Assembly (NCBI GenBank): GCA_960531495.1
Contig: OY482863.1
Location: 6,651,963-6,715,962 of the forward strand
Source: Zeus faber
Lineage: Eukaryota; Chordata; Actinopteri; Zeiformes; Zeidae
Length of the DNA: 64,000 bases
Reading direction: 5' to 3'
This document shows positions 10,045 through 52,084 of this stretch, in pieces. The notes below the pieces were generated by a model. That model saw only the letters and a program-made list of their open reading frames with translations, was not told the DNA's origin and did not search any database. Numbering within the stretch: position 1 is the first letter of the stretch; every line of letters starts with the position of its first letter. The position numbers and the translations under genes are program-made.

Positions 10045-10078
<34 letters not shown>

Positions 10079-12671: not shown

Positions 12672-12714
<43 letters not shown>

Positions 12715-14631: not shown

Positions 14632-14686
<55 letters not shown>

Positions 14687-17600
14687 TAAAGTAGTATTAA
14701 TAATAATAATATTAATTAAATTGTATTATCAATTAATAATAATACAATTTCATTGTCAATAATTGTATCATTGAATTATTGAGGCTTTTTGTCTATCTTA
14801 CCCAGATTCAAATGAAAAAAGATCAATGCCAATTGCATCCCTGTGCGTATGGTATACACACTAAAGCAACAGCTTGCGTAGTAACTGTGTTTGCTCAATG
14901 AAAGGCCGCAGGGGGAATCAGCTCGCCTAGCTCCTGTGACAGAGAGATATATATCTGAAAGGTTGAGTTATCTAACTGATACAAGAAAGATAAAAAACAT
15001 TAAAAACCGATCTTCGATGTTTTAAATGCTTCTGCCTTCTGATTTACTTTTGATTAGTGTGGTGTGGAGATGGTGTGGCTTGAACAGCCACACCTGTCTT
15101 GGGCCAGGTATTTTGCCCGGGATCAGGGTGGCTGTTCGCCTGTTGCTTGTTACAGTAATCAACGTGCAACAGGTTAAAACCCCATTCCCCCACACACACA
15201 GGAGAGGAGCCCTTTTCACGACATGTTTCCATCTGCTCTGAGCTTCTTCCACCTTGCCCACCCTCGACAATAAACCTGGTGTGTTTTCATCACCTGTGTC
15301 ATCACCTATGTCTGTGTCGGAGGGCCCTGAAAAGGCTACTGGGGGCATGTGGCAGGAGAAACTGCCACAGCGATCCACCCGCACGGCGCAGCAATCTATG
15401 AAATGGGTATCAACTTTCGCGTCTGAATCTGGGCGCAAGTTGAAACCGAGTGTCCTTCTGAGAACATCAGATCACTTCTTTGCTGGCTAACGGCTAACAA
15501 GCGCTGCTCGCTCCGCAGAATGGAGAAGGAGATCCAGGATTTGGAGACGCTGGAGCTGAGCATCTCCGCCAACGAGGAGGTCACCCTCAAACGCTTGAAA
15601 GAGGTGGAGAGGTCTGCAGAAGACATTATCAAGGTACCCCACCACCCGCCCACACCGCCATTTCAGGACACCTTAGAATTCCGCCTGCGGTGTTCGTTTT
15701 GAGGAGATTGCTGTTTGTGCCTTTTTGTGCTTGTTTGGATGATCTGATTGGATGGTGTTATTGTTGGCATGTCGGCAGAGGTGGACAAAAGTATTGAATA
15801 TTTCTAGTACATTCGCTATGTGTCGTAGTTTTGAACTCAATGAAGAATGTAAAAGCATACTGCCAAGTTTCATTCGAGGCCTCCTGTACCTTTGTATATG
15901 TGAATAGAGATAATTATGTGCATTTGTTTTTCACTGTTAATGATGACGTTCCACCTGACGTTAATTTTAACATTTGCTAAGAATGTGTAAAACATACTCT
16001 AAAACTGCTTTAGTTACTTTTAAAACACCGAAAAACACTTAAGTTCAAATACAATAAATAAGCAAGTTGACAAGCAAGTTAACCTATTCTAGGTTAACTT
16101 GCTTGTCAATTGTATTGGTATTATGTCAACTTATTGTGTTTTATGTCGATTGTGGCAGTTTTCCTACCACGCGCCACCCAATTGGCGTTTTAGGGACCTC
16201 CGGCACAGAGACCCAGAAGACGGGCTGTTGTAAAAAACAGTTTATTGTAGAGAGTTGGCCAGTTTGAATTAGCCAGGAGTAGATAGACATGTGTCATGAC
16301 AGGGCGCCTACCCTGAGTGTGTGTGAGGATGGGGGTTTTACCTGCCGCTCGTTAGACCAACCAACGAGCAACAGGTATGCAGCCACACTGACCCCAATCA
16401 CCTAGATCCAGGTCAGGTGTGGCTTCTCACCACACCATCCCCACACCACTTCGATTTCTGAGCATAATGACATAATGGTCAACAAGAGTAGTGAGGTGTT
16501 TTGAAGGAAAAGGAGTAAACATTGATAACTTTATTGTAATTAGATACTTAAAGCCCTGCTCTGAAGAGACGTAAAAAACAAAAACATTTTATATGATATA
16601 TGAACCAAATAGTGTTCCACCTGTGTATTGTGAGTTACAACCAATAGAGTGATTGAGTTGCGTGTGTCAGCTAATAACTAGGATGGATGGCGTGATGAGC
16701 GGAAGCTACTTTGCTGCCTAACACTCTGCCTCATCCCTCTGCAAATTTCCTGAGGAACATTTTGTCTACTTTTCTAACAACAACATATCCCGTGCTTCAC
16801 CAACAACTAATGTTTGAGCTTGGCATGGTATGGCAGGTAACATGGAATGCTGGGAAAAGCCCTGAGACCTTTGCAAAGAGAAGATGCATCAAAAGAACCA
16901 GATTGATAGCATTGATAACACTAACGCTATCAGAGTGTGATATGCTATGCCGCCGATGTGGCTCTGGAGAGCCCTTTTTCTGACCGAGCTGATGTTAAGC
17001 TTCTGTATCTTCACACACAGGAGCTAAATGATGAGTTCCGAAAAGGTAAAGACTTTTTCACTACCATATTTTTAATTTATACCTTTAACATTATAACATT
17101 CAATAAAGTGCATGATTGCAGTTGATGGTTTTTTCATTTATTTTGTTATGTTTGGTGAATATTATAATATCCGCTTCATCTGACGGGTACAATTTTTTGT
17201 CTTCTCAGATCTGAAGCGTCATGTTCCCTCACCAGTCCCTGATTCACCACCTTGTGTCCTCCCAACGCAATGGACTAAGACTCCAAAACGACAGACTGGT
17301 GGCGGTGAACCCAAGAAGGGTATAACAGCTACATTATCTACCACGTCGCCATTTAAATTCATAAACAACGTCTATGATTTGGATTTGATTGTGATTGATG
17401 CGGAAACGTGTAAGAATTACAGTATACAATCTGATTTTGTATTCATTTCAATCTATAGAGAAGGAGAAGGAGAGCTACTTTCCTCCACATTTTTCTTTTT
17501 TTTGCATTCCGTCTCAGCTCAACCATTACAAAGACAAATCATTTTGTATTCTCAAAGCATTGCTGCCCCTGCTGCCTGCGACTGCCCAGTATGACTGAAG

Positions 17601-19339
17601 AGCCTCTTGTTCCCATTTTGCCTGTTTTTAAAAGCACCATGGAAATTGTAAAGCAATTTGTTTTTCAGTCAGGAGGAGAGAAGCTTCTGCTCAGGGAACT
17701 CCACCGCAGTTGCATTTTGGACAGACTTATCATTATATCTTTGCGATTGTAGCCTGGTTTGAAACCCAACCAGGGCCTCTGTGCAGAGTTTGCATGCTCT
17801 CATTGTGTTCCTTTGGGATTCCTCCAGTTGTTTCCGCCAACACCAAAAAGGAATGCACACACAGTTATACTGTGGCCATTGCCCTCAACCAAACCACTGG
17901 CCTTAAAATGGAGATCCCGGGTCTGTGACACCCATTGATCCTAATAGTTAAGACGGGTAAAATGCAGAGGACACGCACATGGCCAACAGTATAAAGTAAT
18001 TCGTGATTTATCTCTTTTTGAATCAGTAATGCTATGTTTCACTAAAATATTATTTATAAACTATTGTCTTAAGACATTCATCAGTTTCTTTTCTTTCTTC
18101 TTCACTCTCTGGTCAGCTACATTTGCCATGGAGATCAGTGTGGAGCACGACACCCGCACAGGCGAGAGTCAGGTGGTGGCCACAGCCACGATCACCCCGG
18201 AAACTGCCAAGGAGAGGGGCGTGAAAGTCTACGATGACGGCCGGAAGTCTGTGTACGCACTACACCAGGATGCAGGCAAAGTGCCTAAGGGAGCAGTTGG
18301 GGAATTGACGCCGTTAGAGGTAGATGAGCTCCTACGTCAAGCAACAGACAAAAAGGTGCCCAGCGATGTTCAGTACCACCAACCGGTGTACTCTACACCC
18401 TACGATGGGAACAGTAGGCCTTCAACACCGAAGACCCCCAATAAGACACCTAGGCAGACCCCTACCTCCAGCCCGAGCCCCTTCCCTTTCCTTTCCCAAA
18501 ATGAAGCTCAAACCCCCGGAGAGGAAAGCCAGCTCCTCAGTGACCTCCAAGGATTTAGAAGTCCAAGTAAAACACAGAGCCCCAGTCCTCCCCAAATGCT
18601 AAAGGACAGAGGCCAAAGGTTCCACGTTCTAAGGCAGGCACTCACTGACCAACCGCCACTTCCTGCGTCTTTGTCAGCTTGCGTTGTTGGCAAAATTCCA
18701 CCCGGGCTCACCAATGGCCACGAGGAAAGAACTTGTAACAAAGCAGCAGAGCTGGTCTCAGTCAAAGCCAGGTCCGAGGGGATACCGACACCCATTCAGT
18801 CGGTCTACAGGTGTGATGAAGGCCCCAGTCCTTCATCAAGAAGCCGCAAGTCTGGAGACTGCCCCACTCCTGTCCCACTGATAGAGGATGCAACAGAATT
18901 CTGCAGACGTTCACCATTCTACCCGGAGAGCGAGGAGTCGCTCAACTTTGTCAACGCCCTCCCGGAGGACGTTGAGACTGAGCCGGTCACCATGATTTTC
19001 ATGGGTTACAAGAAGGCAGAGGACGAAGAGGAAGAGGAGGACATCCAGGCTGAACTGATAATTATTGGCAACAGCGATGGTGAAGAGGAGAAAAGCGGCG
19101 GCGCTGATGATGATGTGGACGGTCTGCTTTCGTACCATCCCGAGGGATACAGGAGCAAGGTCTTCCGTCCCAAAGTGGCCATGGCCAAAGTGTCTGGGGG
19201 TGCAGACCTCATCAACGACACCTACACAAATTGTGACGATCTGCTGCTGCCGCTGAAGCCAACGTTCATCCACAAGCCCGGGAAACGCAGTCCTTGCCTA
19301 GATGGACAGCAGCGGGTGGCATTGACCTGGAGAAGATGA
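6405..19339 (+). CDS. palmd: Palmdelphin (paralemmin family), complete coding model, 7 exons
   Basis: Paralemmin-family protein, a cytosolic, membrane- and cytoskeleton-associated coiled-coil protein. Joined exons: 6405-6449, 8188-8268, 10879-11009, 15519-15633, 17021-17045, 17209-17319, 18117-19339; 1731 nt, 576 aa plus stop. All six junctions are GT-AG and keep frame. Residues 1 to about 135 are a charged coiled coil starting MEEADLLKERLQAIT, close to the palmdelphin start. Residues about 172-240 hold the paralemmin core (AMEISVEHDTRTGES, GVKVYDDGRKSVYAL, LEVDELLRQAT). Residues about 455-495 carry EPVTMIFMGYKKAED, which separates palmdelphin from other paralemmins. The human protein is about 551 aa. 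The first coding exon is preceded by an acceptor, so a 5' UTR exon lies upstream. Odd point: the usual palmdelphin C-terminal tail is not visible; the exon 7 frame runs on to a TGA after TWRR, or splices onward from a weak donor after 19315. Neighbours FRRS1 and AGL support the identity. Confidence 0.9.
6450..8187 (+). other. palmd intron 1 (between coding exons)
   Basis: Contains a CTCTTCTCTC-type repeat (about 6520-6575) and otherwise unique-looking AT-rich DNA; (TA)n just before exon 2 at 8145-8163. Confidence 0.7.
8188..8268 (+). CDS. palmd: palmd coding exon 2 (residues 16-42)
   Basis: Acceptor cccacag, donor AAG|gtaatt, 81 nt, phase 0 to 0. Encodes a Lys/Arg/Glu-rich coiled-coil stretch (DKRRVQEDIAKKRRQIEEEK). 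Confidence 0.92.
8269..10878 (+). other. palmd intron 2
   Basis: Holds the 90-bp minisatellite and, at about 9890-10080, a fish-type interspersed fragment (AGAGGTTTATTCGTCACATA ... ACAGTGAAATG) followed by a short (GA)n. Nothing else recognised. Confidence 0.6.
8545..8850 (-). repeat. 90-bp minisatellite with an open frame on the minus strand
   Basis: More than three tandem copies of a 90-bp unit in palmd intron 2. On the minus strand it reads as a 30-residue repeat built of EPSAATAESQPVPYSEPSAA and AAEAQSVP; the frame stays open for 159 codons (8479-8958). To the right a second short repeat (CTCTGGAGCGCTGGGCAGCG, 8998-9035) follows. Either a minisatellite with a period divisible by three or the low-complexity part of a lost transposon protein. 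Confidence 0.8.
10879..11009 (+). CDS. palmd: palmd coding exon 3 (residues 43-86)
   Basis: Encodes KKALREQWLMDGLSQQ, matching the family KKALREKWLLDG segment. Donor ACAG|gtacac, ends with 2 nt of codon 86. The acceptor (gatcaacag) has almost no pyrimidine tract, unusual beside the other exons of this gene. Confidence 0.9.
11658..12086. mobile_element. Tigger-like MITE, copy 1 (family A)
   Basis: Ends CAGGTACTCCTCACTTAACG and, on the other strand, CAGGTACTACTCAGTTAAGG, flanked by TA on both sides, the target duplication of the Tc1/mariner/pogo superfamily. The inside has TATATAGTGTATATAG-type repeats and no coding capacity. Other copies at 39815-39955 and 57002-57383. Confidence 0.8.
12660..12900. 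repeat. (TA)n / (GT)n block
   Basis: (CA)n, then (TA)n from about 12676 to 12710, then GT- and ATGTATAT-rich sequence. Strongly self-complementary. Confidence 0.85.
14633..14690. repeat. (ATT)n trinucleotide array
   Basis: About 19 units, followed by imperfect AAT-rich sequence to about 14760. Confidence 0.95.
15055..15310 (-). mobile_element. Interspersed repeat family B, copy 1 (minus)
   Basis: The reverse complement shares CTCTCCTGTGTGTGTGGGG, GGTTTTAACCTGTTGC and CAGGTGTGGCTG with the copies at 16190 and 21830. No coding capacity; class unknown (SINE- or MITE-like). Confidence 0.65.
15519..15633 (+). CDS. palmd: palmd coding exon 4 (residues 86-124)
   Basis: Acceptor ctccgcag, donor AAG|gtaccc. 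Completes Arg86, then MEKEIQDLETLELSISANEE, the conserved paralemmin coiled coil ending in SAEDIIK. Ends in phase 0. Confidence 0.93.
16067..16109. repeat. Perfect 19-bp inverted repeat (hairpin)
   Basis: TTGACAAGCAAGTTAACCT at 16067-16085, five-base loop ATTCT, exact reverse complement at 16091-16109. Confidence 0.95.
16190..16450 (+). mobile_element. Interspersed repeat family B, copy 2
   Basis: Shares GGGGGTTTTACCTG, CCAACGAGCAACAGGTATGC and ACCACACCATCCCCACACCA with the copy at 21830-22105. Confidence 0.75.
17021..17045 (+). CDS. palmd: palmd coding exon 5, 25-nt microexon (residues 125-132)
   Basis: Acceptor tcacacacag, donor AAAG|gtaaag. Encodes ELNDEFRK and ends with 1 nt of codon 133. 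The phase fits both neighbours. A very short exon that ORF scans miss. Confidence 0.8.
17209..17319 (+). CDS. palmd: palmd coding exon 6 (residues 133-169)
   Basis: Acceptor cttctcag, donor AAGG|gtataa. Encodes a Pro-rich linker (DLKRHVPSPVPDSPP, then TKTPKRQTGGGEPKK). Phase 1 to phase 1. Confidence 0.85.
17320..18116 (+). other. palmd intron 6
   Basis: No repeats or exons recognised; a pyrimidine-rich tract precedes exon 7. Confidence 0.6.
18117..19339 (+). CDS. palmd: palmd large exon 7 (residues 170-576)
   Basis: Acceptor ctctggtcag. Holds the paralemmin core and an acidic region (EDEEEEEDIQAELIIIG). The open frame runs to TGA at 19337-19339. A possible donor, CGG|gtggca after 19315, would end the exon in phase 0 and drop the last seven codons (VALTWRR). 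The Thr-Pro and Ser-Pro rich middle (residues about 255-330) is low complexity and poorly conserved. Confidence 0.9.
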
Positions 19340-19873
19340 AGGGGCTCTATATCCATCCATCTATCCATCCATCCATTCTTTCTTTCTTCCTCACTCACTA
19401 GATTGTCCCATCCAGACCTTTGGGTATGTTTGGTTAATAGATCAAAGTTCAATTTTGTGACTTCTCACCCATACTTGCTACTTAGAAACGTAATACTGAC
19501 AGGTTACATCCTATGCCTTCTATGTGGCATTTGCTTTTTGATTTTCCTTTTTCCTGATCATTTTGTCCTAAGTTTGAAATGTAGCTCACCATTTTTGCTT
19601 GGTCAATCAGCATCACTAGCTGTTGGCTTTTCTGCCACATACTGGCAAATATCTTGCATAATTACATCGTCACACTCCCATGACTTCATGATGCAGCATG
19701 CTTATCCCCTCTGTGCCTTTGCTATACTGCAGCTATCAGATGTAATTAAACAAATCCCTCCATCAAAGAAAGATTTAGAGTCACTGGAAATCTGTTAGCA
19801 TCTTACATGGCCGAACACCATTGTATGTTAGGGTATGGATTTTAATCACTAACTGATAAAAGAACGAAACAAT

Positions 19874-19879
19874 AATAAA
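19874..19879 (+). terminator. Candidate polyadenylation signal for palmd
   Basis: AATAAA about 535 nt after the in-exon stop of palmd. A second AATAAA lies at 20344. Presence supports a palmd transcript ending here rather than always reading on into the downstream gene. Confidence 0.4.
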
Positions 19880-20906
19880 CTAAAGACTAAGACTAACTGG
19901 ATTGCTGTGTTGTATCCATTTTCAAAATCACAGTCCATTGTCTCACCATGGGACCAAAACTGAGGAAGTGGCATAACACCACAAGTAGAAATACAAATAA
20001 TACAAAGCCCTCATTTACACTCATGTATAATCCATGTACGTATGCATGAAAACGCCCTTCTTTGCCATTCATAGGTTACATAAATCAGGGAGAATGACAA
20101 GATCTATATATGTATGTATGAGAGAGAGAGAGTGAGAGAAACAGAAAGGGAAACAGAATTAAGTACACTATGTCCCTGTAAATCATTAAAGTGCTTGTCC
20201 TTGGGTCTCTCTCTCGCTCTCGCTCTCTGTCGTTTTAAGGACAGAGTACGGAGGAGGGGGCCGAGAAATCATCTCAGACATAATGCTTCAGAGATGCGGT
20301 TACATAACAACAATTTCCATTTAGCAAGATGAAATTTGGGTGAAATAAAAAAAACCCGGCAGCCTTCAGCTCACATAGTTCTCGTTTGGGAGTCCGTCAT
20401 AGTGTACTTTCATGTCCCTCCTGCCTGATATGTTTTCCTGATATGATTCAAATCTTTTAAGGGCGTGGAGCAGAGAGGCATATTAGTTACCGATGCTGCT
20501 GTCAATTTCTCTCTGGATTTCTCTCGTACAGGAATGCAAAGGACGTGTGCCATCAAAAAAATTGTTTTGAATTTTGTTTCATAATTTGAAATCAGATTGG
20601 CTTTTCAGTTCAACAAATAAATAATAGTTTTTTATTCTGTATTGCTGATAGTATTGATATTAAATCATTTCATTTCACACATTTGACTCCATATTATGTA
20701 TTAGTGCCTTCATAATAAATAGGATGATACTGTAATATTTAATCTATCTTAATTATGTTTAAAATAAAATACTAAATAAAACTAACAGTCTACAGCGACG
20801 CATTGGCACATGTAAAGAGTGATGAAATGTACAGTATGTTTAAATAAATGTCGACACAAAACGACGAAACGTGGGCGTTGTTGCTTGTCTTTGTGTGTGT
20901 TTGTAT

Positions 20907-20909
<3 letters not shown>

Positions 20910-20966
<57 letters not shown>
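20910..20966. repeat. (GT)n microsatellite
   Basis: About 57 bp of GT. Confidence 0.95.
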
Positions 20967-20968
<2 letters not shown>

Positions 20969-21829
20969 AAATGAATGCTGTTGCAAAGCAGCTGATATTA
21001 GAAAGAAAATACACACTGTCGTGCAGTGATTCTCTGCCTGACAGGAACCATCAAATCTATAAGCGTGAGGCCATGGAACCTGTTTCACAAAATGTTGGGG
21101 AAACTATGATCAAAACAGTCATTACTGTGCCTTCTCTAATGGCAACATCTTGAAAATGAAATAACAGTGTAGTTGAAATAAATTAGAAGTTGAAAAAAAA
21201 TTACTTTGAAACACTGTGAAGGGCCCCTGGGGGTCCCCAGACATCAACATTGACCACCGCTGTAGCGTATGTACATTTAGTGAGGCAAGACTCGCAAACG
21301 ATTCGTTTGTAGCGAACAAATCTCTGAAATGACTCTTCCGGGAGTCACTTGACCAAATTTGACTTTTGTTTGTTTAGCTCGTGGCTGGGTAACTGCAGTC
21401 AGGCATTCACCGAGTCTCAACGATTCCTGGACAAAAAGAGCAGTGAGCTGCGAAATGGATGCAGTTGAAACTGAAAATGATTGTCAAGGATCAGGGGCAT
21501 GTAGAGTGAGTGTCTGGGCCTTCAGCCTCAATAAAGCCTTAACTTGAAGTCATGTGACAGTGGTGTAGCTGGTTTATAGCCTAATGTTAGCTTTTTACTT
21601 CTGCTGATTGCATTTACGCTTTCAAAAATCATAGGTGGTGTTCATTTGTGAAGATTATCTTGCTGGACAAAACGTGTACAGATATGATTAACTTTTGTTT
21701 GCCACAGAGCTTTTCTCCTTCAATGATCCAAAATCCAATGGATGAATCCCATTGGCTTTTTGTCGAAGGAACCAGGGTGATACTAACTTCCGGGTGGGCC
21801 TACAAAAATACATCATCCTGCGGCAGTTT

Positions 21830-22105
21830 CAGGGCCCTGCGGCACCGAGGCACAGACGATGGGGTTGAGAAAACACTCGTTATTGTGGAAAGGGGGCTTG
21901 ATACAATAAGCCCCGGAGCAGATGGACACATGTAATGACAAGGACTCCTCTCCTGAGTGAGTGTGGGGATGGGGGTTTTACCTGTTGCCCGTTAGACCAA
22001 CCAACGAGCAACAGGTATGCAGCCACCCTGATCCTAGGCCCCAATTACCTAGACCCGGGACAGGTGTGGCTGCTCAAACCACACCATCCCCACACCACAC
22101 ATCCC
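21830..22105 (+). mobile_element. Interspersed repeat family B, copy 3
   Basis: Nearly matches copy 2 over GGGGGTTTTACCTGTTGCCC to ACCACACCATCCCCACACCA, with upstream similarity (AGCAGATGGACACATGTAAT) to copy 1. Confidence 0.75.
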
Positions 22106-22534
22106 TGCAGCACTCTATGACTCTATCCCCGCTCCCCCAGACACAAACAAAGAGCGAATGGAACCACAACATCCGGTTACCTTCAAAGAGCCATATTCCC
22201 ATCACTACACTTTGCGCTCTGCCAAACAAAATCACTGTGACCGAATGTGATGACTCTTGGGGGAACTCCCTTCACCACTTAGAGCCAAACACTCTTCGTT
22301 CATCCCTCGCCCGCCGGCGTGCCACAGCAACGGGATGACAAAACAATCCAAGAGTTGGAAAATCAAAACCACTCTTTTCACCGAGTGACTCGTCAAGAAC
22401 CGAGTCTCAGAAAAATAAAGAGTCATTTAACATTTCATCACCACGCGCATCAAACGATGACGCTCAGTCATGGTTTCATCCTGTGAGAATCCACATAATG
22501 TTGGAATAGAAAAAAATATTCATAATCAAGAGAG

Positions 22535-24145
22535 ATGTGGAGGGAGGGAGGGGAGGGAGGGATGGAGGGAGGGATGGAGGGAGGGATGGAGGGAGGGAGG
22601 GAGGGAGGGATGGATGGAGGGAGGGAGGGATGGAGGGATGGAGGGAGGGAGGGATGGAGGGATGGAGGGAGGGAGGGAGGGAGGGAGGGAGGGAGGGAGG
22701 GGTGTATTTGGTGTGCCGCATATTGTATGTATCAGAAAAAAAGCGCTGCTATTGGTTCCTCGTAATACACCCCTCCATCCCTTCATCCTTCCCTCCCTCC
22801 TTCCCTCCCTCCATCCCTCCATCCTTCCCTCCCTCCTTCCCTCCCTCCATCCCTCCCTCCATCCCTCCATCCTTACCTCCCTCCATCCCTCCCTCCGTCC
22901 CTCCCTCCTTACCCCCATCCATCCCTCCATTCTTACCTCCCTCCATCCCTCCCTCCATCCCTCCCTCCTTACCTCCCTCCATCCCTCCATTCTTACCTCC
23001 CTCCATCCCTCCCTCCTTACCTCCCTCCATCCCTCCATCCTTACCTCCCTCTGTCCCTCCCTCCATCCTTAACTCCCTCCATCTCTCCCTCCCTCCATCC
23101 TTACCTCCCTCCATCCCTCCCTCCATCCCTCCCTCCTTACCTCCATCCTTACCTCCCTCCATCCCTCCATCCTTACCTCCCTCCATCCCTCTCTCCTTAC
23201 CTCCATCCTTACCTCCCCCTGTCCCTCCCTCCCTCCATCCTTACCTCCCTCCATCCCTCCATCCTTACCTCTCTCCATCCTTACCTCCCCGTCCCTCCCT
23301 CCTTACCCCCCTCCATCCCTCCCTCTATCCCTCCCTCCTTACCTCCCCCTGTCCCTCCCTCCTTACCTCCCTCCATCCTCCATCCTTACCTCCCTCCATC
23401 CCTCCATCCTTACCTCCCCCTGTCCCTCCCTCCCTCCATCCTTACCTCCCTCCATCCTTACCTCCCCCGTCCCTCCCTCCTTACCCCCTCCATCCCTCCC
23501 TCTATCCCTCCCTCCTTACCTCCCCCTGTCCCTCCCTCCTTACCTCCCTCCATCCCTCCATTCTTACCTCCCTCCATCCCTCCATCCTTACCCCCCTCCA
23601 TCCCTCCATCCTAACCTCCCCCGTCCCTCCATCCTTACCCCCCTCCATCCCTCCCTCCTTACCTCCCTCCATCCCTCCATCCTTACCTCCCTCCATCCTT
23701 ACCTCCCTCCATCCCTCCATCCTTACCTCCTCCATCCTTACCTCCCCCGTCCCTCCATCTTACCCCCCTCCATCCCTCCCTCTATCCTCCTCCTTACCTC
23801 CTCCCCTGTCCCCTCCCTCCTTACCTCCCTCCATCCCTCCATCCTTACCTCCCTCCATCCCTCCATCCTTACCTCCCTCCCATCCCTCCATCCTTACCTC
23901 CCTCCTTCCCTCCCTCTGTCCCTCCCTCCTTACCTCCATCTTACCCCCCTCCATCCCTCCATCCTAACCTCCCCCGTCCCTCCATCCTTACCCCCCTCCA
24001 TCCCTCCCTCCTTACCTCCCTCCATCCCTCCATCCTTACCTCCCTCCTTCCCTCCCTCTGTCCCTCCCTCCTTACCTCCCTCCTTACCTCCCTCCATCCC
24101 TCCCTCCTTACCTCCCTCCATCCCTCCCTCCGTCCCTCCCCTCAT
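22535..24145. repeat. GGA/TCC minisatellite in inverted arrangement, 1.6 kb
   Basis: 22535-22700 is purine-only GGGAGGGATGGA-type repeat. After a 68-bp unique spacer, 22769-24145 is its pyrimidine-only complement (CCCTCCATCC, CCTTACCTCC units). The two parts are reverse complements in kind, so the region can fold back. Very long open frames on both strands are by-products of the repeat. Confidence 0.95.
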
Positions 24146-24169
24146 ACCTCAGCCACCACCACCCAGTCC

Positions 24170-24428
24170 AACCCAGCCCCCTCACGTCCGATCACACGCA
24201 GCAGCCGTCAGCGGTGACGCAGTGTGGTGCGCGGCGCGCAGTCACACACTGAGCGGCAGCGTCGCTCCCGCATCAGCCGTCGCGCAGGTCCGGTAGGTTC
24301 CGCTCCGCGCACACCCGCGCCGCACGCATCCGCAGCGGCAAACTTTTGCAAAGACGTCGCTGTGCGGAGGAGCAGTAGACACGACGGCATTATGAATTAA
24401 GAGCGTTGTCTGGAATCTGCGCCGGTCC

Positions 24429-24430
<2 letters not shown>
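24170..24430. promoter_or_regulatory. CpG-rich patch 1 between palmd and AKAP2-like gene
   Basis: Many CG dinucleotides (GCGGCGCGCAGTCACACACT and onward), ending at a (GT)n array. A donor-like TCCG|gtaggt occurs at about 24292. Candidate alternative promoter; no transcript evidence. Confidence 0.3.
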
Positions 24431-24524
<94 letters not shown>

Positions 24525-24533
24525 GTGTGTGTG
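24431..24533. repeat. (GT)n microsatellite
   Basis: About 103 bp of GT with one interruption. Confidence 0.95.
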
Positions 24534-24674
24534 AAATGTATAGAAAAAAAAAAAAAGAGAGATTTATACAGTAAATGGAAAAAATAAATGTGATCACGGA
24601 TGTTCATGAATATGATATATAGAGAGGAAAAAAAAGTATATACTAATTTCTAGACACACAAACAGATATACTTC

Positions 24675-24755
24675 AGATATATACTTGTGATATATACTTG
24701 TGATATATACTTGTGATATATACTTTTGATATATACTTGTGATATATACTTGTGC
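24675..24755. repeat. 13-bp tandem repeat
   Basis: About six copies of GATATATACTTGT, one varied to GATATATACTTTT. Confidence 0.85.
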
Positions 24756-25562
24756 GGATGTTCTGCATGATTTGCTGCAATGTCCCGCAGGCTGTTGCGG
24801 TGCATGTTTCGTTCCGTCCTGGCTGTTAGAACGTGCAGTAGGAGGTGTAGTGTCACCTGGAAGATCCACAACATGTGGTAATGGAGGAGATGGAGGGCTC
24901 CGTGCGCTGCGGTCGTACTTTCTCAACGGGGAGGGGACTTCGATCCCCCCGCATGACAACAGACTCGCCGGTGCCGGTGCCGGTGCCGGTGCGTTTACCT
25001 TCTTTTTTGTTTTGCTTTGTTGTTGTTTTTCCTCGGCGGCGGACGCTCCGATTCCAGCGCATTCGAGTCGGACGTTTTGGGTGTGATCTGAAACCGGTCA
25101 GTTCATTTGTTGAGGTTTGTGTATGTGAAGCAGGTTAATGTGGATTTTCATGAATTACAACGTGTGACCGCATGCGATGAGCCTCACGCGTGGTCGGATG
25201 ATTGTGGGAGAAATAGGATATTAACCACCCATCACTTCTCCAGCAGTCACATGCATTTTAATATCCTCTCTTTTTACGATGCATCCCTGGCTTTGCCTGG
25301 TTAATGACATTACTGTTATTATTATGATCAGTATTGGGATCTATTCGTTAAGGCTTCTCCCAAGTCTCCATGGAGCGTGGATGTTGTTGCACCGAACACA
25401 GATTTGATCTTTTTTTGTTGTTTTTTTTTTAATGCCAAATTTTTTTATGTCAATTTTTTTTAAGTGAAAAGTGGAAAAACTGCATTAAAAAAAATGTCTT
25501 TTAAATGTATTTTATGAGGTAAACTCCAACCTTTGCGACTCATACATCTGCGTCTGTCGTTA

Positions 25563-25998
25563 TGGTGCGTTCAAAAACCTCAAGGTCCCTAAAGTGGCTT
25601 AGATTAAAAAAAAAAAAAAAAAAAAAAAAAATCCAACTGTACTTATACTAGTCAAAACTGGGCTAGATCATAATGAAAAATCGAAACATAATTTCAAACC
25701 CTATTTCAGATTTGTGAAAACTTTATTGTATTTATGAAAAAGAAAAGATGGATTTCACTGTATCTTTTCCACTACCAACAGAACTAAACTAACAGAAATA
25801 AATCTAAGTCTAATATAAAAACACACAGAAACCGTAAACGTCACAACTGAGTATATAAATAGGTTAATAAGGCATTATACACACAGGCCGGGCTTAAAAT
25901 GCAACACAAACTAGACAAATAAAATCTAAGGGTTCCCTGCTCTGTTTCTCTATCCACCAATTGGGCTGAGAAGGTTGAAAATCCCTGCTCTATTGGAT
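25563..25998 (+). mobile_element. hAT-like family C fragment, copy 2 (5' part missing)
   Basis: Matches the right half of the element at 43170-44204: CAGATTTGTGAAAACTTT, GATTTCACTGTAT, CAACTGAGTATATAAA, then an end GAAGGTTGAAAATCCCTGC. Interrupted by a poly-A tract at 25604-25630. Confidence 0.75.
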
Positions 25999-26799
25999 AA
26001 AGAATTTTAGTTAAATTAATTATTTTGGATTTTCTCATAAAGGTTGACCTTTCTTCACCGGACTCAAGTGTATATCTGTATTAAAAAAAAAAAGGGGGGG
26101 GGGGGATTTCAATAGAAAATACATGGCCATCTACAGCCGGAACCACTGAACTGCTAGATCAATGCAGAATAAATAAATGATGCAACATGCGACGTGTTAT
26201 TTCAATGTTTTCCCAAGATAAAAGTCAAAAAAAAAAAAAGATGAAATGGCTTGATATAACTTTGAGACATCTTAAATGGGAGCCTTACATCACCGTCACA
26301 GACACGTCAACACACAAACACACAAACAACCGATAAAGAGACGACAGCGCAAGGAAACAGCAGTAGGTGTCTCGCTGTGTGAAGGCCTGAGTTTCTTGTC
26401 ACCTGCCGCGTTAAATGACGGTGAAAGGAGTCGTTACTGATCACCGCAGGGGGAAGTAGGAAGTTGACTTTTCTCCTCCTGCAGCTGAGGATGACGACCT
26501 GCCACATCAGTAGAGAGAGGGCTCCAGTGTGGGATCTGCACTCACACCATGCTCGCGGTGCGTGCTCATTCGGTGGTGTGAGGATGCGGGGGTCATGGCG
26601 TGTCTCTTCAGCTTTCATTTTTGAAAAAAGACCCATTCGACGGCCATCTCCTCTGTTCATTTAGCCGCAACAAGTTTTTGTTTTTTTTTCCCCTTGAGCG
26701 ATTCACGCAATTTATTTTTTTAAGCGCTGTGGGATAAAACATGGTATCCGAGTCCAATTCTCAAGGGCTGAGAATTGGACGGATTGGAAAAAAACAAAA

Positions 26800-27190
26800 A
26801 ACAATCGCTTAGTCTTCTCCGACGTGGCCCCCGACCCATCATCACCTCACCCCGATCATCACGAGCGCGCCGGAGAGGGGCGGGGGGGTGCGAGGGTGGA
26901 GGGCTGCTAGGTAACGCCTCACCCCCCCGGCCCCCTCTTGGGGCGCACGGGGCTCCTTCAGTGCACTTAGAGGCGGCACACTTGTGGTAAGTGTGTTTTG
27001 GGGTGACTTTCTCACAACGTATTCAGTCATTTCAGACGCATCGACGGCTCCATCGTGCGGGGACGGGCGCGGTCGTCCGGGGCGGGCCCCGTGGTCATTT
27101 TCACCCTCTCTTCAAAACCACGTTTCCCCCCCCGATACGTACGCCGCTCTGCTTGCTCGACGCAGGTTCCAACGCGGTCTGGGCTTCACG
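26800..27190 (+). promoter_or_regulatory. CpG-rich patch 3 with a consensus donor
   Basis: GC-rich with many CpG, followed by a near-perfect splice donor CTTGTG|gtaagt at 26986/26987. Candidate first exon for the AKAP2-like gene 6 kb downstream. Inference only. Confidence 0.35.
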
Positions 27191-27553
27191 CTCGCCCTTT
27201 CCTCTGTTAGTCAGACACCCGTAGATGCTTTTGCGTTGGGCGTCATTCTATCTGTAGGCAGCTGTTTTGGATATGATTCCTCTGACTTCTGTCTGGACGC
27301 TGGGCTGCAGGCTGCCAGTAAATATGGCTTAGTTACATAACATTCTCAGCAAATTGGAGGCTCTTGGCTTAAAACTCCTTGGTCAGCTGTGTACTGTAAA
27401 CATCGATATCCTCTTCCATGTACTTGCTGTGTCATATACTGTGAAACCTACTGTTGCTGGGGAGGAAAGAGGTTTTCTAGGTCTTATCATTGTAGCTCTA
27501 GTACATGTTTGAAGCAGCATTGTTCGCTTTGTTCAGTTTTTGTCTCCATGTGT

Positions 27554-27582
27554 CCCCCAGTAAGCAAAGTGCTTACTGGGGG
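27554..27582. repeat. Perfect 12-bp hairpin
   Basis: CCCCCAGTAAGC, loop AAAGT, GCTTACTGGGGG. Confidence 0.9.
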
Positions 27583-29557
27583 CACCTGGTCCAAGTCCTA
27601 GCTGATACTTCCAAAAACAAAAAATCCACACAGGCTTGGCTAAATAAGGAGAGACCTTCCAAATCAAGGATTATGAGTCTGGCCAGATTTCCGCTTTAGG
27701 CACGAGGCCATATTCTACTGCCTCTGAACTCGGGCCCCCAACCACCGGTCCACGGACCATTACAGTATTTTAAAGTGCTAGAGGTGAAATATGCATAGGG
27801 AATATGCAATACTTATTATATTCCTATAAAATATAATTGCTGCTCGTGGATTTCTTCTGACCTTGGAAGGAACACAGATGGACAAACTTTAATCAGTGTT
27901 TGCTAGAGCTGGGTAAAATGTGGCTAATATATTTTGCTTATTAATAAAAGTAGTTGAAGTATTACTTTACTAGTATCTAGTATCTAAACATATCGACTAA
28001 AGACTAACCCGGGTGGCTCACTCATAAGATACTGTTATCTCTAAATTGCCCTTGTGTCTCTCTGCCTTACATCCATTGTCAACTGGAAGAACCACTGCTT
28101 TGTGATTTGTATTTAGGTTGATCAACTAATCGCCTTCTCGTGTTACATTTCTCGTGTGTCCTCTAAGCAACGCTATGGAACTTTGATGCTTGGCCCCGAT
28201 AATTACGGCTTTTCTTTCCAGGTAAAATTTATAAAAAAAACAAAAACAAAAAAAACCCCAATAAATTATAAACTCGCTGGTCAAAACGTCCGGTAATAAT
28301 GCTCACACAAAACGCGGCCGCTCCGCCTCCTCCACGGCGCGGACGAGACGGGCCAGTGGTGCACCAGCACGTCAGCCGGCGCACGTCAGCCTCACTCTCA
28401 TCGTGCCAAAGAGTTTGTTTCACCTTCTAACTTGCGAGGGCGAGCCGATCTGCCAGGCCGAGCACATCTGGTACCTACGCCGGTAGCACTTTTAAAGCTG
28501 TCTTGGTTCGGCTTCCCTGATAAAAAGACATCCTGGATCTCAATGGGACCGCTGGTTCAATATTAAGGAATATAGACAGCAGTACTGGCCGACTAGCGAC
28601 ATATGCACTTTGAGCTGGTTGGACATAGGTGGTTTGCTCTACAGCAGTGGTTTCTGCCGGGGGTCGGCGGAGCTATTGCAGGGGGATCCCCCATATAATT
28701 TAAAGTCAAAATTATTTTTGTGAAAAAATTTATATTGAGTGTCCAACCCTTTAACACGCGTTTTTCTCCTAGGGTTGAGTACCGCGAGACATGGTATTAA
28801 ACAGGCCCCAGGGCCAAATTATTAAAGACCATAGTATGGATAAGCTCTGACTTTACCGGTACTGTTAATGATATTGGAGAAATTGATAGGATAGATTTTC
28901 TGATTGTTTCTAACTGTCAATAAGATTAAGATATTCGTCTATTTTCATTATTATCAGAAGAGACCAGATTGCGACCAGATTGAGTGCAGATTACGCCCCG
29001 ATCGCCCCCTCCATGCGTAACCGCATGGACTGCTTGTGCGTGCAGCAGATGAGTTATACCATGGGGAGTCCTTGAAGGCTGTTGAATTATGGGATATGAG
29101 ACTGCTGCTTACCCTAACTTTGAACCCTCTGTTTTTCCCCCCTGGAGCAATCAAAGCCGAGCTGGCAAATGCACCGGTGATTATACAAGACGGGAAAGAT
29201 GTAACATTAACTTTGAATCACTTAGCAGCCACTTTTATCAAAAGTGTCTCACACCAAGTACCTTTGTCAGTGACAGTTGAATTGCTTGTGCGTCAACGTT
29301 GTCATCAGCAACGCATTCAACGAAAACAAGGGACATCAGCAGAAGCACAATCATGGGCTGTTTTCTCCAAAGAGGAAATTTCAGATGTGGTTTATAAATC
29401 AGATGTCAGAAGTAGCTTGGAGATGGTTTCATTTCACACTTAGTGGGTATGCCAGCTTTGTGTTTTTTGGCAAAGCGCAGTTTTCAGGAGAAGTGTGTCA
29501 GTTTTATTAAGCACTACTTGAATATACTAAAAATTATTTTGATAATAGAAAAACATT

Positions 29558-30257
29558 AAGGTCTCATCCACATGTATATGGGTATTTTTAAAAACATATT
29601 TTTGTCCCCTCCGTTTAAAAAAATAAATTCCTGTCCATTCCTGTGCTGTTATTGAAAATATTTCCGTCCAAGAGACAGAACAGAAGCAAAAACGGTTGAA
29701 AACACTCAAGCAGGCCAGGCCAGTGGGCAGGGGGGGTCAAACTTGATGTCAAACACAACAGAAGAACATTAGGAGCACATTGATGGGCCTCTTCTTGAGC
29801 GGCGAATACAGAAACACAGCATGGCGTACTTTGAACTCGGGTTGACAGCTATCACATGTGCACATGCATGAACGTGGGTATACTTGGGTGGGGGGGTTAA
29901 AAATGAGGTCACTCTACATTAAACGTAACAGTACTAGCTATACATATACACACCGGTAGTCCGCCATCGATGTACAGTAGGTATCTGCCTCATGCTCAAT
30001 GTGTGAAACAACAATTGCACATGTGTAACAGTCGAGGTCATGACGTCATTGTCTGGCCAAGCCTCCATTTCACCGTTCCGCGGGAATATGGAGAAAGGAG
30101 GGTTTTGAAAACATCTCCACCCTGGAAGTTTTTCCAAAAGCTTTGTTTTTAGTGACCCGAAACGCCGTTCTGGTTTGGACGGAAGGTGAAAACTGTAATT
30201 GTAAAAAAAAATGTAATAAGATAAAAAATATCCACATAGGTGTGGACGAGGCCTAAG
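29558..30257. mobile_element. hAT-like non-autonomous element
   Basis: Inverted ends: AGGTCTCATCCACATGTATA on the left and, on the other strand, AGGCCTCGTCCACACCTATG on the right, each followed by a short run toward GGTATTTTT-like sequence. No transposase. The target duplication is unclear. Confidence 0.6.
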
Positions 30258-31803
30258 AAGCTCAAAATTGAAAAGAATACAGGAGGTTACCTGCCACAAA
30301 CAATTGCAAGGTTGGCTGGTTTAGAGGAAACAAACATAGCGAAAGGTGGAGGGGGCTGAAGATCCTTATGAGGCACAGAGGTCAGTGGAGGAGAAGTCCA
30401 GGTAGATCTTGGAAGAGTTGGATCAACATTTTGAAGGAGCCGCCCTGTCTCAGACTTGATGCGGCATTGACTCAGCCTTTGACTCTGTCTCGGAGAGTTT
30501 GAGTTTGGACTTACAGTATCATTTAAAATGACATGAACATTGAACATAAGAGGAGAGAAATAAATAGCAATGCCACTTTAGGACAGAATGTGGGGGTCTC
30601 TTCACATGGTCAAGTCAATGCCAAGAGACAGCTGAGGTAGAACTGCAGTCTGTTGACACAGAGTCATTCATATTATTGGGACGATTCACGATAAACAGGA
30701 TTGTATCAATTGAAGAGCCACTCCGATGCTTTCAACGCAGCCATCACAGTCAAAGAAAATTGCCGCCACTGGTGACACTTTTTAGACTGGAAGCCACATT
30801 GAGCAGAAGCAAGCGCGCAAAGAGGAATTTGCCTATGGACACCATTCAAAACAGAGGAATGCAAAAGGATTAGGAACTCAGATGGAAGTAGATGAGCACT
30901 GCCACCCTGTTTAATACTGGGAGCTTTGGATTGAAAAGAGCCCACAAGCCCCGGTTAAGCTGCAACATGGCCACTGACCTGACACTTGGCAGACACACTG
31001 GCATGACCTCAGCGTCAGTCAGCAATCCAGATCCAACCAGACCATTCAAGTGGTGTACAACCACAACACAGGCACATTTTATATGACAATTCCAGAACAA
31101 ATTTAAAATAATGTGCGTTTAAGGTTCGGAAGACTTTTTAGTCACTTAAAATATTTCCATTTAAATTAAATGTAAATTTTGGGCTCCCTATTCCCTCAGC
31201 CTTCTGGGTCCAATTTTCCCCACAGTCCTATTTTCCCTCGACCCTATGTTCACTCAACCCTGTGTTCCCTCAGCCATGTTTCTATTATTGTATTCCCTAT
31301 ATCAGTGAAAATATTGACTCAGTGAATGAGTGAGGGACTACCCCGTTCTTTAAATGTGCACATATTGCTGTATATAAATCAATGTAACAAAGTGATCCCT
31401 CATGGCCTCATGTCGAATGTATGGCTGTACTGGTTGCTTGAGGGAACATAGGGTTGAGGCAACACCACCAATACTAATATACCTCAAGAAAAATGGCTAA
31501 TGTTAATCATTTGAGCTGTGCCTTTCTGCGTTGAAGGAAACATGAAACATGAAACTTACCACCAGGTACTTTTGTTTGGATAAACCCTATCGATCAACAG
31601 TGACAGAAAGAGAAACAGTAATTAACTAAAAAATTGTCCATTATACTGATAATAATCAGGGTGTGTGTCTGTAAACACATCAAAGTCACGGCACAGATCT
31701 TATCCAGCTTTTATCTTCTCATTCATTCCTCTTCTCTTTGAGATGTGGCACTGTTGGAAGTAAAGACAGAAATCTAGGGGTTGTGGATAACAGACTGTTT
31801 ACC

Positions 31804-31805
<2 letters not shown>

Positions 31806-31840
<35 letters not shown>
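31806..31840. repeat. (GT)n microsatellite
   Basis: About 35 bp of GT followed by GCGCGCGCACGCG. Confidence 0.9.
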
Positions 31841-31847
<7 letters not shown>

Positions 31848-32947
31848 CACGCGTGTCCTTGAGTTTCCACCCACCCATCCACCCACAATTTCCTCACCCA
31901 CCCATAGAGTGTGTTAAAATGTTCTAAGGAGTTTGTGTGTATACGTGTGCACAGGCGTGCGTGTGCCCATGCACAGAGAAGGAGGCACAGCAAATCATCT
32001 GCAGGGACAATCCAACACGATGTGTGGGCGGCAGACCCCCCACTCCCCCCCCGCCCCCGCAGCCTTACATAAGAGCCACGGCCACTGGATTCAGCGGTGT
32101 GTTCTACGTGCCTTCTTCCCCTCTGTGCTCAACTCACTTTTGCACAGCAGAAGTAAAGGGCTGATATTGTCAAGATGCCACCCCCCCCCCATGCCAAACC
32201 TGAAGGATTTGAGTGTATTGTTTTTTGCTTGATGCGATTTAATTGAAAACAATACCCTTAAAGGTGTGATTTAGCCAAGCTGGATCGTCGACTCCCCATG
32301 ACTTCAAACCATTTCTTCATGCTTGTTCCTCTTTGCGCCTGGGCGACTACTGTCTTTCATCTTTAGTTCATCACTGATTGCCACTGTGTTACAATTGCAT
32401 GGTGTTATTTACCACACCCCAATTTCTCATTACCATTTCAGTGCTGATGCAAATGATGACGAGGAGGATGGTTATAGTGATTATGTTTTTTCCTGTCTTT
32501 TTTAACTTTCATATTTTACAAAAGAAACATGAACAAGTCATGTACGTGATGCAGCCACATGGATTGAATATTTCTAACATGCTCTAGAACGAATAATTGC
32601 CATTGCGGTTTCTTGACTGAAGACACTGTATCAACATTCCTTAAATACAGTATACTGGATTAAATGCCTCAATGCGTCAGACTGCCAGGCTAAGGTGAAA
32701 ATTTGGTTCTACTTGTGAGTTAGGAAATAAGAGGGCATAATAGGAAGGAGATTCGATTGGTGAAAAAACTGGGGTATGACGAATGCTTAAGACAAGGTGA
32801 GGGTTTGGGCCTGAAAGAGTTATTGAATTGTCTCCACAGAATTCACCATCTTTGTGATAATGTATTCCGCCTCAGTGCGAGATAACAACTCCCTCTCTCC
32901 CTTTCTGCCAGTTGAATATACCCCCTCCTTTCTGTTTTTTTCTCCAG

Positions 32948-35213
32948 AAAGCTAATGCCCGAGAGACAAAGGCTGATGGAAAAGAACTGACTGAAGGTTG
33001 CAGTAGCCCAGAGAATAAAAGTGTGAACGGATTGTTCACCTTTGCAGACACACTCACCATGGAAACCACCTTTGAACAATCAGAGGCTGCTGTGACTACG
33101 GACGACTGCAATGTGGAACTTGGTCGGGATGACTCAATTGAACATGGGGCCAACTCAAGTGCTAATAATGAACAAGGGCAAGTTTGCCAACAGACAGACA
33201 TGCCTACTACCCCTGGGGAAACGCCTGAAGATGTAGCTGACCTGCTACCCTCTGCAGTAAGAACTGAGGAGATTGACGACATGACCAATGGTCTCTGTAA
33301 TGATGGTACCTACGGAGACCCAAAGGAAGCTTTGATATTAGAGTTGGGGCATGAGGAGCTCAACAGAAATGAATCCACTGCTTCGTCTGTCTCCGACACA
33401 CTCTCTAGCGCGGACAGTGTCTATGAGAATGAGGCCCATCGTAAGAGACAGGACACCAGGGAACAGAACCCTGAACCTGAGCCTGAGCCAGAACCTGAAC
33501 TTGAGCCAGAACCTGAACTTGAGCCAGAACCTGAACTTGAGCCGGAGCTTGAGCCGGAGCTTGAGCCGGAGCTTGAACCGGAGCTTGAGCTGGAGCTTGA
33601 GCCAGAGCATGAGCTTGAGCCAGAGCTGGAGCCAGAGCTGGAGCCAGAGCCAGAAACAGCCGCCGACGAAGACATGTTAAATCCAGAGGGCGATGGCTAT
33701 AGAAACATGGGGTCTGACACAGAAGAGGACCCCTTGATACACAATATCCCATTTGAACCTCCCATCGGAGAGACAGAAGAGAGCATACTGGAACAGTACA
33801 TCAGAGAAGAGGTCATGTCTGACGTTTCCAATGAATCTTGCCACGAACTGGACCCCAATGACCTGGACGAGTGCTTGAGAGTCGAGATTGGGGCCGCTAT
33901 AGACAGTGACACGGATGAGAAATGGCGGACAATTTTCTCCTCCTCCATTAACAGAGAGGACGATGACTCATACTTGGACAGCCTACAACTGAGTGCTCAG
34001 GAACTCTTTGTGCAGAAATGTGTCAACGTTAGAGACACAATGGAGGACGACGACAGTATGAACATTGAACAAGTGCCGCTTCAGGTTCCACTGGAGGACG
34101 AAGTGATAGAGCAACCTGAAGATGATATCTCCTTTCCAGACCCTCCCCAGGAGGTTACATACAACCCTTTACCCCTTCCCTGTTTGTCCAAAATTTCAGA
34201 AGATGAGAACGAAAATGGGAAAGGACATAACGACACCATCCAACACTACCAGAACTCCCTGCACCTGAACTTAGAAGCTGGCAAGAAGCTACCAAAGGAC
34301 TTCTGTGTGATACAGGAGACCAAGAGTGAGAATGTCAGCACTGAGCATGTGGACTTCCAGGTGGCGCGTAAACAGTGGCTTGAGATGGAGGAGCAAAGCA
34401 AGAACCAGATTGTGTCCCCCACAGCCAAGACACCCAGCTTCCACGGCAGCCACAGTTTCATGTATACGCCAGTGCGCAACGTTGAAAGACCTCAAAAGCG
34501 AGAGCATGAACTGGAGAATTTAAGCCTGGTTGGAGACTACCCTCACACCCAGTTCAGCCCCTGTTCTGAGGATTCTGGCCTGGACGATTTAAGCTACAGG
34601 TCTGGCCCTTATGATGAACCGGATACTCCGGTTGAAAAGGAGATGCGCACAACCACGGAGCGAGAGGACAAGTTCAGGAAGGAGAGGGGATTCTCCAGGA
34701 TGGGAAAATCGGCAGACTGTACCCCAACTTTGCAGAGTTTGCCCAGGTCAACCAGCACCCCATTGACTCCCTCGTTCATCATTACATCCTCACCGACCAA
34801 GGGGCCACTGAAGCACGAGGTTGCTGCCAATAATGTCATCATTCTCGAACCCAGCGACAATTTCCCCTCCAGCCCGAGACATAGCAGAGATGGGGCGTCG
34901 GCTCATGGTAGAGAGCATACAGGCAACCCCAACCTAATCATCCTAGAGACCTCTAATCTGATTATTCGCAGTGCCTCAGAGTTCTCCCTCAACAAGGCCT
35001 GTGATCAGCCCCAGGAGAAGATGTTCCTCAACAACCCCTTCTTCAAGCTACGCTCGAGAAGCACAATGTCTCTGGTGGACGAAGAGATCAGGATGGTGAA
35101 GCAGAGAGAGGAAGAGCTGAGGAAAGAGAGAGCCGATCTATACGGCAAAGACAGGTTTAGCACGGGCGGGAGGTTGTCAAACCACATGGACAGCTTATCG
35201 TTTAATCACTCAG
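32948..35213 (+). CDS. AKAP2-like large exon
   Basis: Acceptor ttttttctccag, donor TCAG|gtgggt. Starts in phase 0 and ends with 1 nt of a Val codon. A 2.27 kb exon, as in AKAP2. The upstream frame is open back to 32912, but that part lies in the acceptor pyrimidine tract and is not coding. Confidence 0.9.
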
Positions 35214-35914
35214 GTGGGTTGACGGGTGTCTGACCACTCACACCTCACACGTTGTGACCTGTGTTTGGATTGTGCCAAGTCATGTTGAACATTGATCTTT
35301 TTCATTTAGTTGATGTACCTGAGAAGTGCAAGTCATCTCCATCGTCACCAATGAAAACGGCTTACAGGATGGACCGCTCTGTTTTATCCTGCGACCACAG
35401 GGTGAGAGTTCACTCACACAGATTTGCAGACCTAAAATTATTTACATAACATTCTATTTACATAATGAAACCTTCCATTGAAGACACAATCCTTTGTAAC
35501 ATTTATATTTGTGGATGAAACAATGAAAGATCATTAGGTTGGCTGTTTATAATGCAGCACAAACAGCGAGTGCGATAATGTATTATCCAAAAAGGATTCA
35601 TGTCTTAAGTCTAACAAAGCTAGTTACTCAGGAATAATGTTTGCCAAACAACTTGAAAAATGACTGTTTTCAATTAAAGACTGACTTGCCTGTCTTTAAT
35701 TCCACATTTAGTCTAAAAACCGGGGAGAGGAGGTGGAGGAAATGGAAAGGGTGGAGGAGGAGGTGAAGGAGGCGGAGGAGGAGGAAGTTCTTTGAAATTG
35801 CAGGTAAATTAAGCAACTTATTTCTCTCAGTTCCCAGAGGTCTACAGCGGAGGAAGACGCAAGAGTGCCATGGCGCTTCGCTGGGAGGCGGGAGAGTTTG
35901 CCAAGAACGACTGA
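32948..35914 (+). CDS. AKAP2/MISP-family protein (AKAP2 C-terminal domain), 3 exons
   Basis: Exons 32948-35213, 35310-35401, 35831-35914; GT-AG junctions keep frame. Translation gives 813 aa from the exon start, or 776 aa from the ATG at 33059 (context caccATGG). Family landmarks, counted from that Met: [18 protein letters not shown] near 428 (compare AKAP2 EQIDFSAARKQF), [12 protein letters not shown] near 504, [20 protein letters not shown] near 658 followed by a Lys/Glu helix, and the terminal [15 protein letters not shown], nearly the AKAP2 end (RRKSALALRWEAG). The family binds actin and, in AKAP2, PKA regulatory subunits; no clear RII-binding helix was seen here. Acidic N-terminal half with a Glu-Pro/Glu-Leu repeat. 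It sits right behind palmd, as AKAP2 sits behind PALM2. Whether it has its own promoter or is the 3' part of a palmd fusion cannot be told from sequence. Confidence 0.85.
33466..33657 (+). repeat. In-frame Glu-Pro / Glu-Leu coding repeat
   Basis: About 64 codons alternating GAG/GAA with CCT/CCA/CCG or CTT/CTG, read as [16 protein letters not shown] then ELEPELEPE units, ending before TAADEDM. Six-nucleotide coding microsatellite inside the large AKAP2-like exon. It also creates spurious open frames on the other strand. Confidence 0.9.
35310..35401 (+). CDS. AKAP2-like penultimate exon
   Basis: Acceptor ttcatttag, donor CAGG|gtgaga, 92 nt. Completes Val, then [20 protein letters not shown] and [10 protein letters not shown]; ends in phase 0. 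Confidence 0.8.
35712..35803 (+). other. Possible purine-rich cassette exon with in-frame stop
   Basis: Flanked by acceptor cacatttag and strong donor GCAG|gtaaat, 92 nt. Read in phase 0 after the preceding exon it gives 27 codons ([14 protein letters not shown], Glu-rich) and TGA at 35793. Inclusion would replace the conserved AKAP2 tail or trigger decay. It could also be just purine-rich intron sequence. Confidence 0.35.
35831..35914 (+). CDS. AKAP2-like terminal exon
   Basis: Acceptor ttctctcag. Phase 0; encodes [20 protein letters not shown], then GEFAKND and TGA. This is the most conserved part of the AKAP2/MISP C-terminal domain and fixes the gene end. Confidence 0.92.
   Translation, partial: FPEVYSGGRRKSAMALRWEAGEFAKND

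Positions 35915-38126: not shown

Positions 38127-52084
<13,958 letters not shown>

Follow-up and report, generated by a model that had tools for sequence, protein, structure and literature searches.

A paralemmin downstream gene behind palmd

We analysed a 64,000-nucleotide stretch of the Zeus faber genome (assembly GCA_960531495.1, contig OY482863.1, positions 6,651,963 to 6,715,962 of the forward strand), referred to below as the window, in which a three-exon gene at 32948-35914 lies directly behind the palmdelphin gene palmd. This gene is almost certainly the teleost paralemmin downstream gene 4A (PDG4A; PDG4 for short), the paralog of AKAP2, MISP and MISP3 that is paired with palmdelphin. 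The original prediction for the locus had treated this pairing as apparently new. Both the identity of the gene and its pairing were already published in 2012 by Hultqvist et al. (PMC3405040; this and all other papers are cited from excerpts), and our addition is that one and the same in-frame junction linking palmd with PDG4 turns up across teleosts. The remaining interest of the locus lies in the breadth over which this fusion is conserved.

The three PDG4 exons are on the forward strand and are bounded by ordinary splice sites. The large exon 1 (32948-35213; ctccag/AAAGCT to CTCAG/gtgggt, with the slash marking the exon boundary) carries an open frame and is matched by homologs. Exon 2 (35310-35401; ttag/TTGATG to CACAGG/gtgaga) matches relatives by tblastn, and exon 3 (35831-35914; ctcag/TTCCCA to GAC TGA) encodes the conserved RWEAG end followed by a TGA stop, and is 92.6% identical over 27 residues to the relative P0065 (tblastn). 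Together they give 813 codons before the stop, this model being one of the exon-boundary and frame combinations examined. The exons, splice sites and open frame were found as had been claimed, and both motifs quoted earlier as an AKAP2 C-terminal signature are present in the translation.

The likely stand-alone start codon of PDG4 (METTFEQSE) is at 33059-33061 on the forward strand, at codon 38 of exon 1, and similar MET starts occur in the relatives P0062, P0064 and P0013. From this ATG the stand-alone product would likely comprise about 776 residues; upstream of it the frame stays open to the splice site. With regard to a promoter, the base-composition table gave nothing usable and the sigma-70 scan is a bacterial model. 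Within the coding exon, Tandem Repeats Finder located an acidic Glu-Pro-Leu tandem repeat (33470-33654, forward strand), a region that is poorly conserved among relatives (0.36-0.40) and more heavily gapped than any other in the fusion alignment described below.

PDG4 begins 13.6 kb downstream of the palmd core exon and on the same (+) strand. The palmd core region (18035-19330, forward strand, limits approximate), located on an exon of palmd's own, matches the Pfam family Paralemmin at 102 bits (E 5.5e-29). On the other side of PDG4, an open reading frame (ORF) with a Reeler domain, probably FRRS1, is found on the reverse strand at 51770-52198 (Pfam Reeler, 22.8 bits, E 1.5e-4, cut-off 21). 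Judged from the sequence, PDG4 is thus located between PALMD and an FRRS1-like gene, and the predicted order, with palmd at 6405-19330 on the same strand directly in front, was recovered. A simple pattern search for a CaaX end found none on the forward strand of 19201-32947, an interval in which the last exons of palmd are not mapped.

Relationship to AKAP2, MISP and MISP3

In Pfam, the last 378 residues of PDG4 match AKAP2_C (PF15304) at 25.5 bits (E 9.4e-6; curated cut-off 27), the last 154 residues at 24.3 bits, and exon 1 alone at 19.6 bits (E 5.8e-4). We regard this AKAP2_C match as apparently real but weak. The homology of PDG4 does not depend on Pfam, because close relatives were found in many fish. 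More specifically, a first homolog search, restricted to proteins too short to be palmd-PDG4 fusions, returned 61 relatives with E <= 1e-3, the top one at 2e-179 and 74% identical over 99%. A second returned 400, of which the best 120 were used; its top match (1.8e-194) covers 99% of the C-terminal 378 residues at 79% identity. The matches listed in both searches amount to 172 unique relatives, many of them fragments. Many teleosts carry close relatives of PDG4; among the matches listed, the named relatives are teleosts and no non-teleost name occurs in the 172, many of which are nameless. No relative with a solved structure was found. An AKAP2_C family search of the Zeus faber genome gave no match and likewise none in 14 control genomes, so it is uninformative.

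MISP and AKAP2 have a C-terminal domain in common (PMC9145010). The C-terminal motif with its invariant WE is present in PDG4 as the terminal RWEAG, the R, W and E of which are shared by 80%, 100% and 100% of 11 misp3/MISP-labelled rows, respectively. Furthermore, 47 residues of the window protein are common to at least 60% of both 10 PDG4A rows and these 11 rows, including NPFFKLRS, the RE-EL helix, RWE-G and a TP-E-E-R block. MISP3 and MISP thus resemble the window protein in NPFFKLR, the RE-EL helix and the RWE-G end, and differ from it in branching separately.

Three phylogenetic trees were used, of 28, 29 and 27 rows. In all three, the window protein falls into a PDG4A-type group (support 94/75, 97/98 and 99/98, respectively). 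The members of this group are teleost proteins, and the database name of many is palmdb or palmdelphin. Its nearest rows are Gadus in the 28-row tree (100/98) and Gadus with Muraenolepis in the 29-row tree (95/98), with no resolution in the 27-row tree. The misp3/MISP-labelled fish proteins form branches separate from PDG4A in the 29-row and 27-row trees, and the window protein does not nest among them. In the 27-row tree, P0241, P0243 and P0247 were labelled 'misp' by hand and grouped with misp3, so that the names of the MISP and MISP3 branches are provisional, and the label counts of that tree (4 changes each for 'misp' and 'misp3') reflect these hand labels.

Another set of teleost PDG4 proteins, at about 40-45% identity, makes up a separate clade. 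Taken as PDG4B, this second copy has a similar architecture in its full-length rows, the identity of about 40-45% applying to the C-terminal part, and six of its listed rows start with MISFWLLCWKLLRAT. The PDG4-like protein P0018 was placed in neither teleost group in the 28-row tree and could be a non-teleost or an early teleost copy. A hydrophobic alternative N-terminus of the type MIS[FY]W was noted in 9 of the 172 listed relatives, from both PDG4 groups (P0022, P0024, P0026, P0036, P0039, P0042, P0119, P0168 and P0170). The corresponding first exon was found neither in the window by tblastn, which gave chance-level matches only, nor by pattern in 15634-32947.

Hultqvist et al. named the paralemmin downstream genes PDG1-4, which form four clades and lie beside PALM1, PALM2, PALM3 and PALMD, with PDG4A and PDG4B adjoining PALMD-A and PALMD-B in several teleosts (PMC3405040). 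In the same excerpts, PDG4B is inverted except in zebrafish, and teleost PALMD-A has no CaaX end. PDG4A is the best name for the window gene because it lies on the same strand as palmd and no CaaX end was found behind palmd by the simple pattern. The likeness to the published PDG4A extends to the same-strand position behind palmd, the AKAP2-like C-terminus, the WE motif and, as predicted from the in-frame junction, the read-through from palmd known from zebrafish transcripts; no difference was found between the two, and the Zeus faber gene is its ortholog in another fish. The proposal that the gene is the fourth member of a paralemmin-AKAP2/MISP pairing, kept in fish, agrees with the sequence, the trees and the published scheme (PMC3405040). 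This lends support to an earlier idea with little follow-up, according to which every paralemmin gene originally had a partner of the AKAP2 type at its back. Its presence in other fish is evident from relatives fused to palmd or named palmdb, and from PDG4 beside PALMD in several teleosts (PMC3405040). A literature search of open-licence papers gave no further paper on PDG4 among the matches listed.

The loss in mammals that had been suggested leads to the tetrapod record. According to the original prediction, MISP3 adjoins human PALM3; if it does, the published tetrapod absences, that of PDG4 included, may be incomplete. In the excerpts of Hultqvist et al., no PDG is reported beside tetrapod PALM3 or PALMD (PMC3405040).

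Database names of PDG4 proteins call for caution. Some orthologs carry misleading names (titin, DNA ligase 1, FK506-binding protein 5, uro-adherence factor A, mediator subunit 15), and the palmd-PDG4 fusion accounts for some of the wrong names. Many relatives bear the NCBI name palmdb, and the letters A and B may differ between sources.

A probable in-frame splice of palmd to PDG4 across teleosts

The palmd coiled coil is encoded by four exons on the forward strand of the window, all located by tblastn. The first coding exon (MEEADLLKERLQAIT; 6405-6449, donor ACG/gtaatg), common to the predicted fusion, was found with P0065, P0089, P0158 and P0164 as queries. It is followed by a coiled-coil exon at 8188-8268 (cacag/GAC to AAG/gtaatt), by the exon with REQWLMDG at 10876-11009 (5' boundary approximate, donor ACAG/gtacac), and by the last coiled-coil exon (MEKEIQDLE...SAEDIIK) at 15519-15633 (CCGCAG/AATGG to AAG/gtaccc). 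The last of these ends in phase 0 (AAG/gtaccc) and PDG4 exon 1 starts in phase 0 (AAA GCT). Because both boundaries are phase 0, the palmd coiled-coil exons and the PDG4 exons join in frame, and the conceptual fusion of the four palmd exons with PDG4 has 938 codons with no internal stop. Its exons span 29.5 kb in the window.

The same junction recurs among the relatives. In 49 of the 172 listed homologs, all of them among the best 120 of 400, the palmd coiled coil is joined at EDIIK or a close variant, and the palmd core was detected by pattern in none of the 172. The fusion occurs in fish as varied as milkfish, shad, carp, salmon and spiny-rayed species. Two of the proteins, P0120 (917 residues) and P0172 (876 residues), are full-length fusions whose longest contigs measure 3591 and 3948 bases, respectively; their tag, 'lgn', was taken to mean contigs assembled from raw reads. 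Since these contigs are far shorter than the 29.5 kb exon span, their source is likely spliced RNA.

Published transcripts point the same way. Three zebrafish expressed sequence tags (ESTs) join PALMD-A to PDG4A, with the footnote of Table 1 giving PDG4B instead (PMC3405040). The arrangement also parallels the PALM2-AKAP2 read-through of human and mouse, in which a paralemmin N-terminus is spliced to a downstream AKAP2-family gene (cited in PMC3405040); that read-through differs in involving another paralog pair than palmd-PDG4. A further joined protein, P0231 from Periophthalmus, combines a paralemmin core and a cysteine-rich stretch with a MISP/MISP3-like tail and is possibly a read-through of another pair.

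Conservation was measured in an alignment of the window protein with 47 of the 49 fusions (P0065 and P0160 omitted). The mean column identity is 0.83 in the coiled coil, 0.51 in the 37 residues before the stand-alone start and 0.50 in the 133 residues after it, and two PDG4 blocks reach 0.95 and 0.94. We conclude that the fusion transcript is very probably real in teleosts, and we infer that Zeus faber would express it as well.

The chief alternative is that the two genes act separately. PDG4 would then bind actin on its own, in the manner of MISP, and the fusion would be noise from transcriptional read-through. This reading draws on the good start in the context cacc ATG G at 33059, at which the annotated isoforms P0062 and P0064 begin, and on the 123 of 172 listed relatives that lack the coiled coil by pattern, a count to which one length-limited search and many fragments contribute. 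Against it stands the in-frame junction, which is the same in milkfish, shad, carp, salmon and spiny-rayed fish, and two cDNA-like contigs (P0120, P0172) carry it. The 37 residues ahead of the start are also about as conserved as the next 133, a comparison biased by the selection of its rows as fusions. We consider separate action of the two genes rather doubtful.

Predicted structure and possible function of the fusion

To describe the fusion protein structurally, an AlphaFold model of the fusion ortholog P0067 was used, built on an alignment of 35 of the 49 fusions. With a mean predicted local distance difference test (pLDDT) score of 46, the model is reliable only in its N-terminal part, a confident helical hairpin (2-52/60-115); the remainder is mostly disordered, with short helices at 410-421, 599-614, 689-708 and 839-862. 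REQWLMDG is located at the hairpin tip, and its spacing fits R51, W54 and L55 of the Palm1 paralemmin motif, an identification of our own. These three residues belong to the paralemmin motif of Palm1, which cannot be recruited to the actin-spectrin lattice without W54. The Palm1 core domain interacts with beta-II-spectrin in yeast two-hybrid assays and is reported to contribute little to lattice recruitment (PMC11887803). The fusion thus retains the paralemmin motif without the palmd core. MISP, for its part, is an actin bundler (PMC11101845).

By analogy with these proteins, we tentatively suggest that the fusion could be an adaptor of the cortical cytoskeleton. The locus would give two kinds of product, stand-alone PDG4 and a palmd-PDG4 fusion that skips the palmd core. 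Docking to the submembrane skeleton might be the task of the coiled-coil hairpin with its paralemmin motif, whereas the long disordered arm might bind actin or associated proteins via the short helices common to MISP and AKAP2. A bolder proposal, which we hold to be less likely than not, is that palmdelphin-A and PDG4A in teleosts amount to a single gene with alternative 3' ends, in which a splicing switch after the coiled coil would pick either the spectrin-binding core or an arm of the AKAP2/MISP type. Selection would then act on the fusion rather than on the stand-alone proteins and so hold the two genes side by side. Should the fusion prove functional, a shared transcription unit would simply explain why the genes are linked, and zebrafish would offer a way to study the role of fusions of the PALM-AKAP2 type.

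Several points weigh against this picture of an AKAP2-related gene whose fusion with palmd acts at the cortex. For the AKAP2_C membership originally proposed, all scores, 25.5 bits included, fall under the curated cut-off of 27, and the full 813-residue protein matches no Pfam family at E 1e-3. The trees contained fish proteins without AKAP2, and an age reaching back to the two rounds of genome duplication (2R, ohnologs) rests on the published tree and synteny because, in the excerpts of Hultqvist et al., an AKAP2 homolog was found neither in lamprey nor in elephant shark (PMC3405040). Fusion ESTs are reported there from zebrafish and from no other teleost. All of the fusions but two are annotated-database entries, for the most part gene predictions, in which adjacent genes can be merged by mistake. 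Among the 39 listed relatives tagged lgn, the terminal RWEA end occurs in only 5, 2 of which (P0120, P0172) are fusions, and a genomic retrocopy could be an alternative source of a short fusion contig. Finally, the counterpart of the Palm1 core that binds beta-II-spectrin is absent from the fusion. Taken together, a PDG4A gene with stand-alone and fusion products, the latter serving as a cortical adaptor, is in our estimate the best explanation and a reasonably probable one, this grading being a compromise.

A different function would be the anchoring of protein kinase A (PKA), with PDG4, like AKAP2, binding the RII subunit through a conserved helix. Its kinship with AKAP2 would be compatible with such a role, as would the low-confidence helix 410-421 of P0067, which lies in a stretch of 0.67 mean column identity. 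According to the excerpts of Hultqvist et al., the RII site of AKAP2 is not conserved in PDG1, PDG3 and PDG4, where those authors hold that binding is not excludable (PMC3405040), and PKA anchoring by PDG4 seems clearly unlikely. That PDG4 arose by a recent duplication of AKAP2 or MISP, with the new copy inserted next to palmd, is most improbable: trees without AKAP2 leave it some room, but PDG4 stands apart from the misp3/MISP-labelled proteins, it is fused to palmd in fish as distant as milkfish and spiny-rayed fish, and a four-clade tree has been published (PMC3405040).

Repeats in the window

Tandem repeats were observed in three further parts of the window. In a palmd intron, a 45/90-bp tandem repeat (8555-8855) has open frames on both strands. 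Between palmd and PDG4 lies a CCCT-rich tandem array of 1.4 kb (22771-24140), preceded by a GGAG array (22539-22701) and overlapped by long low-complexity ORFs. Downstream of PDG4, a degenerate CCCTAA array (39335-39761) resembles an interstitial telomeric repeat.

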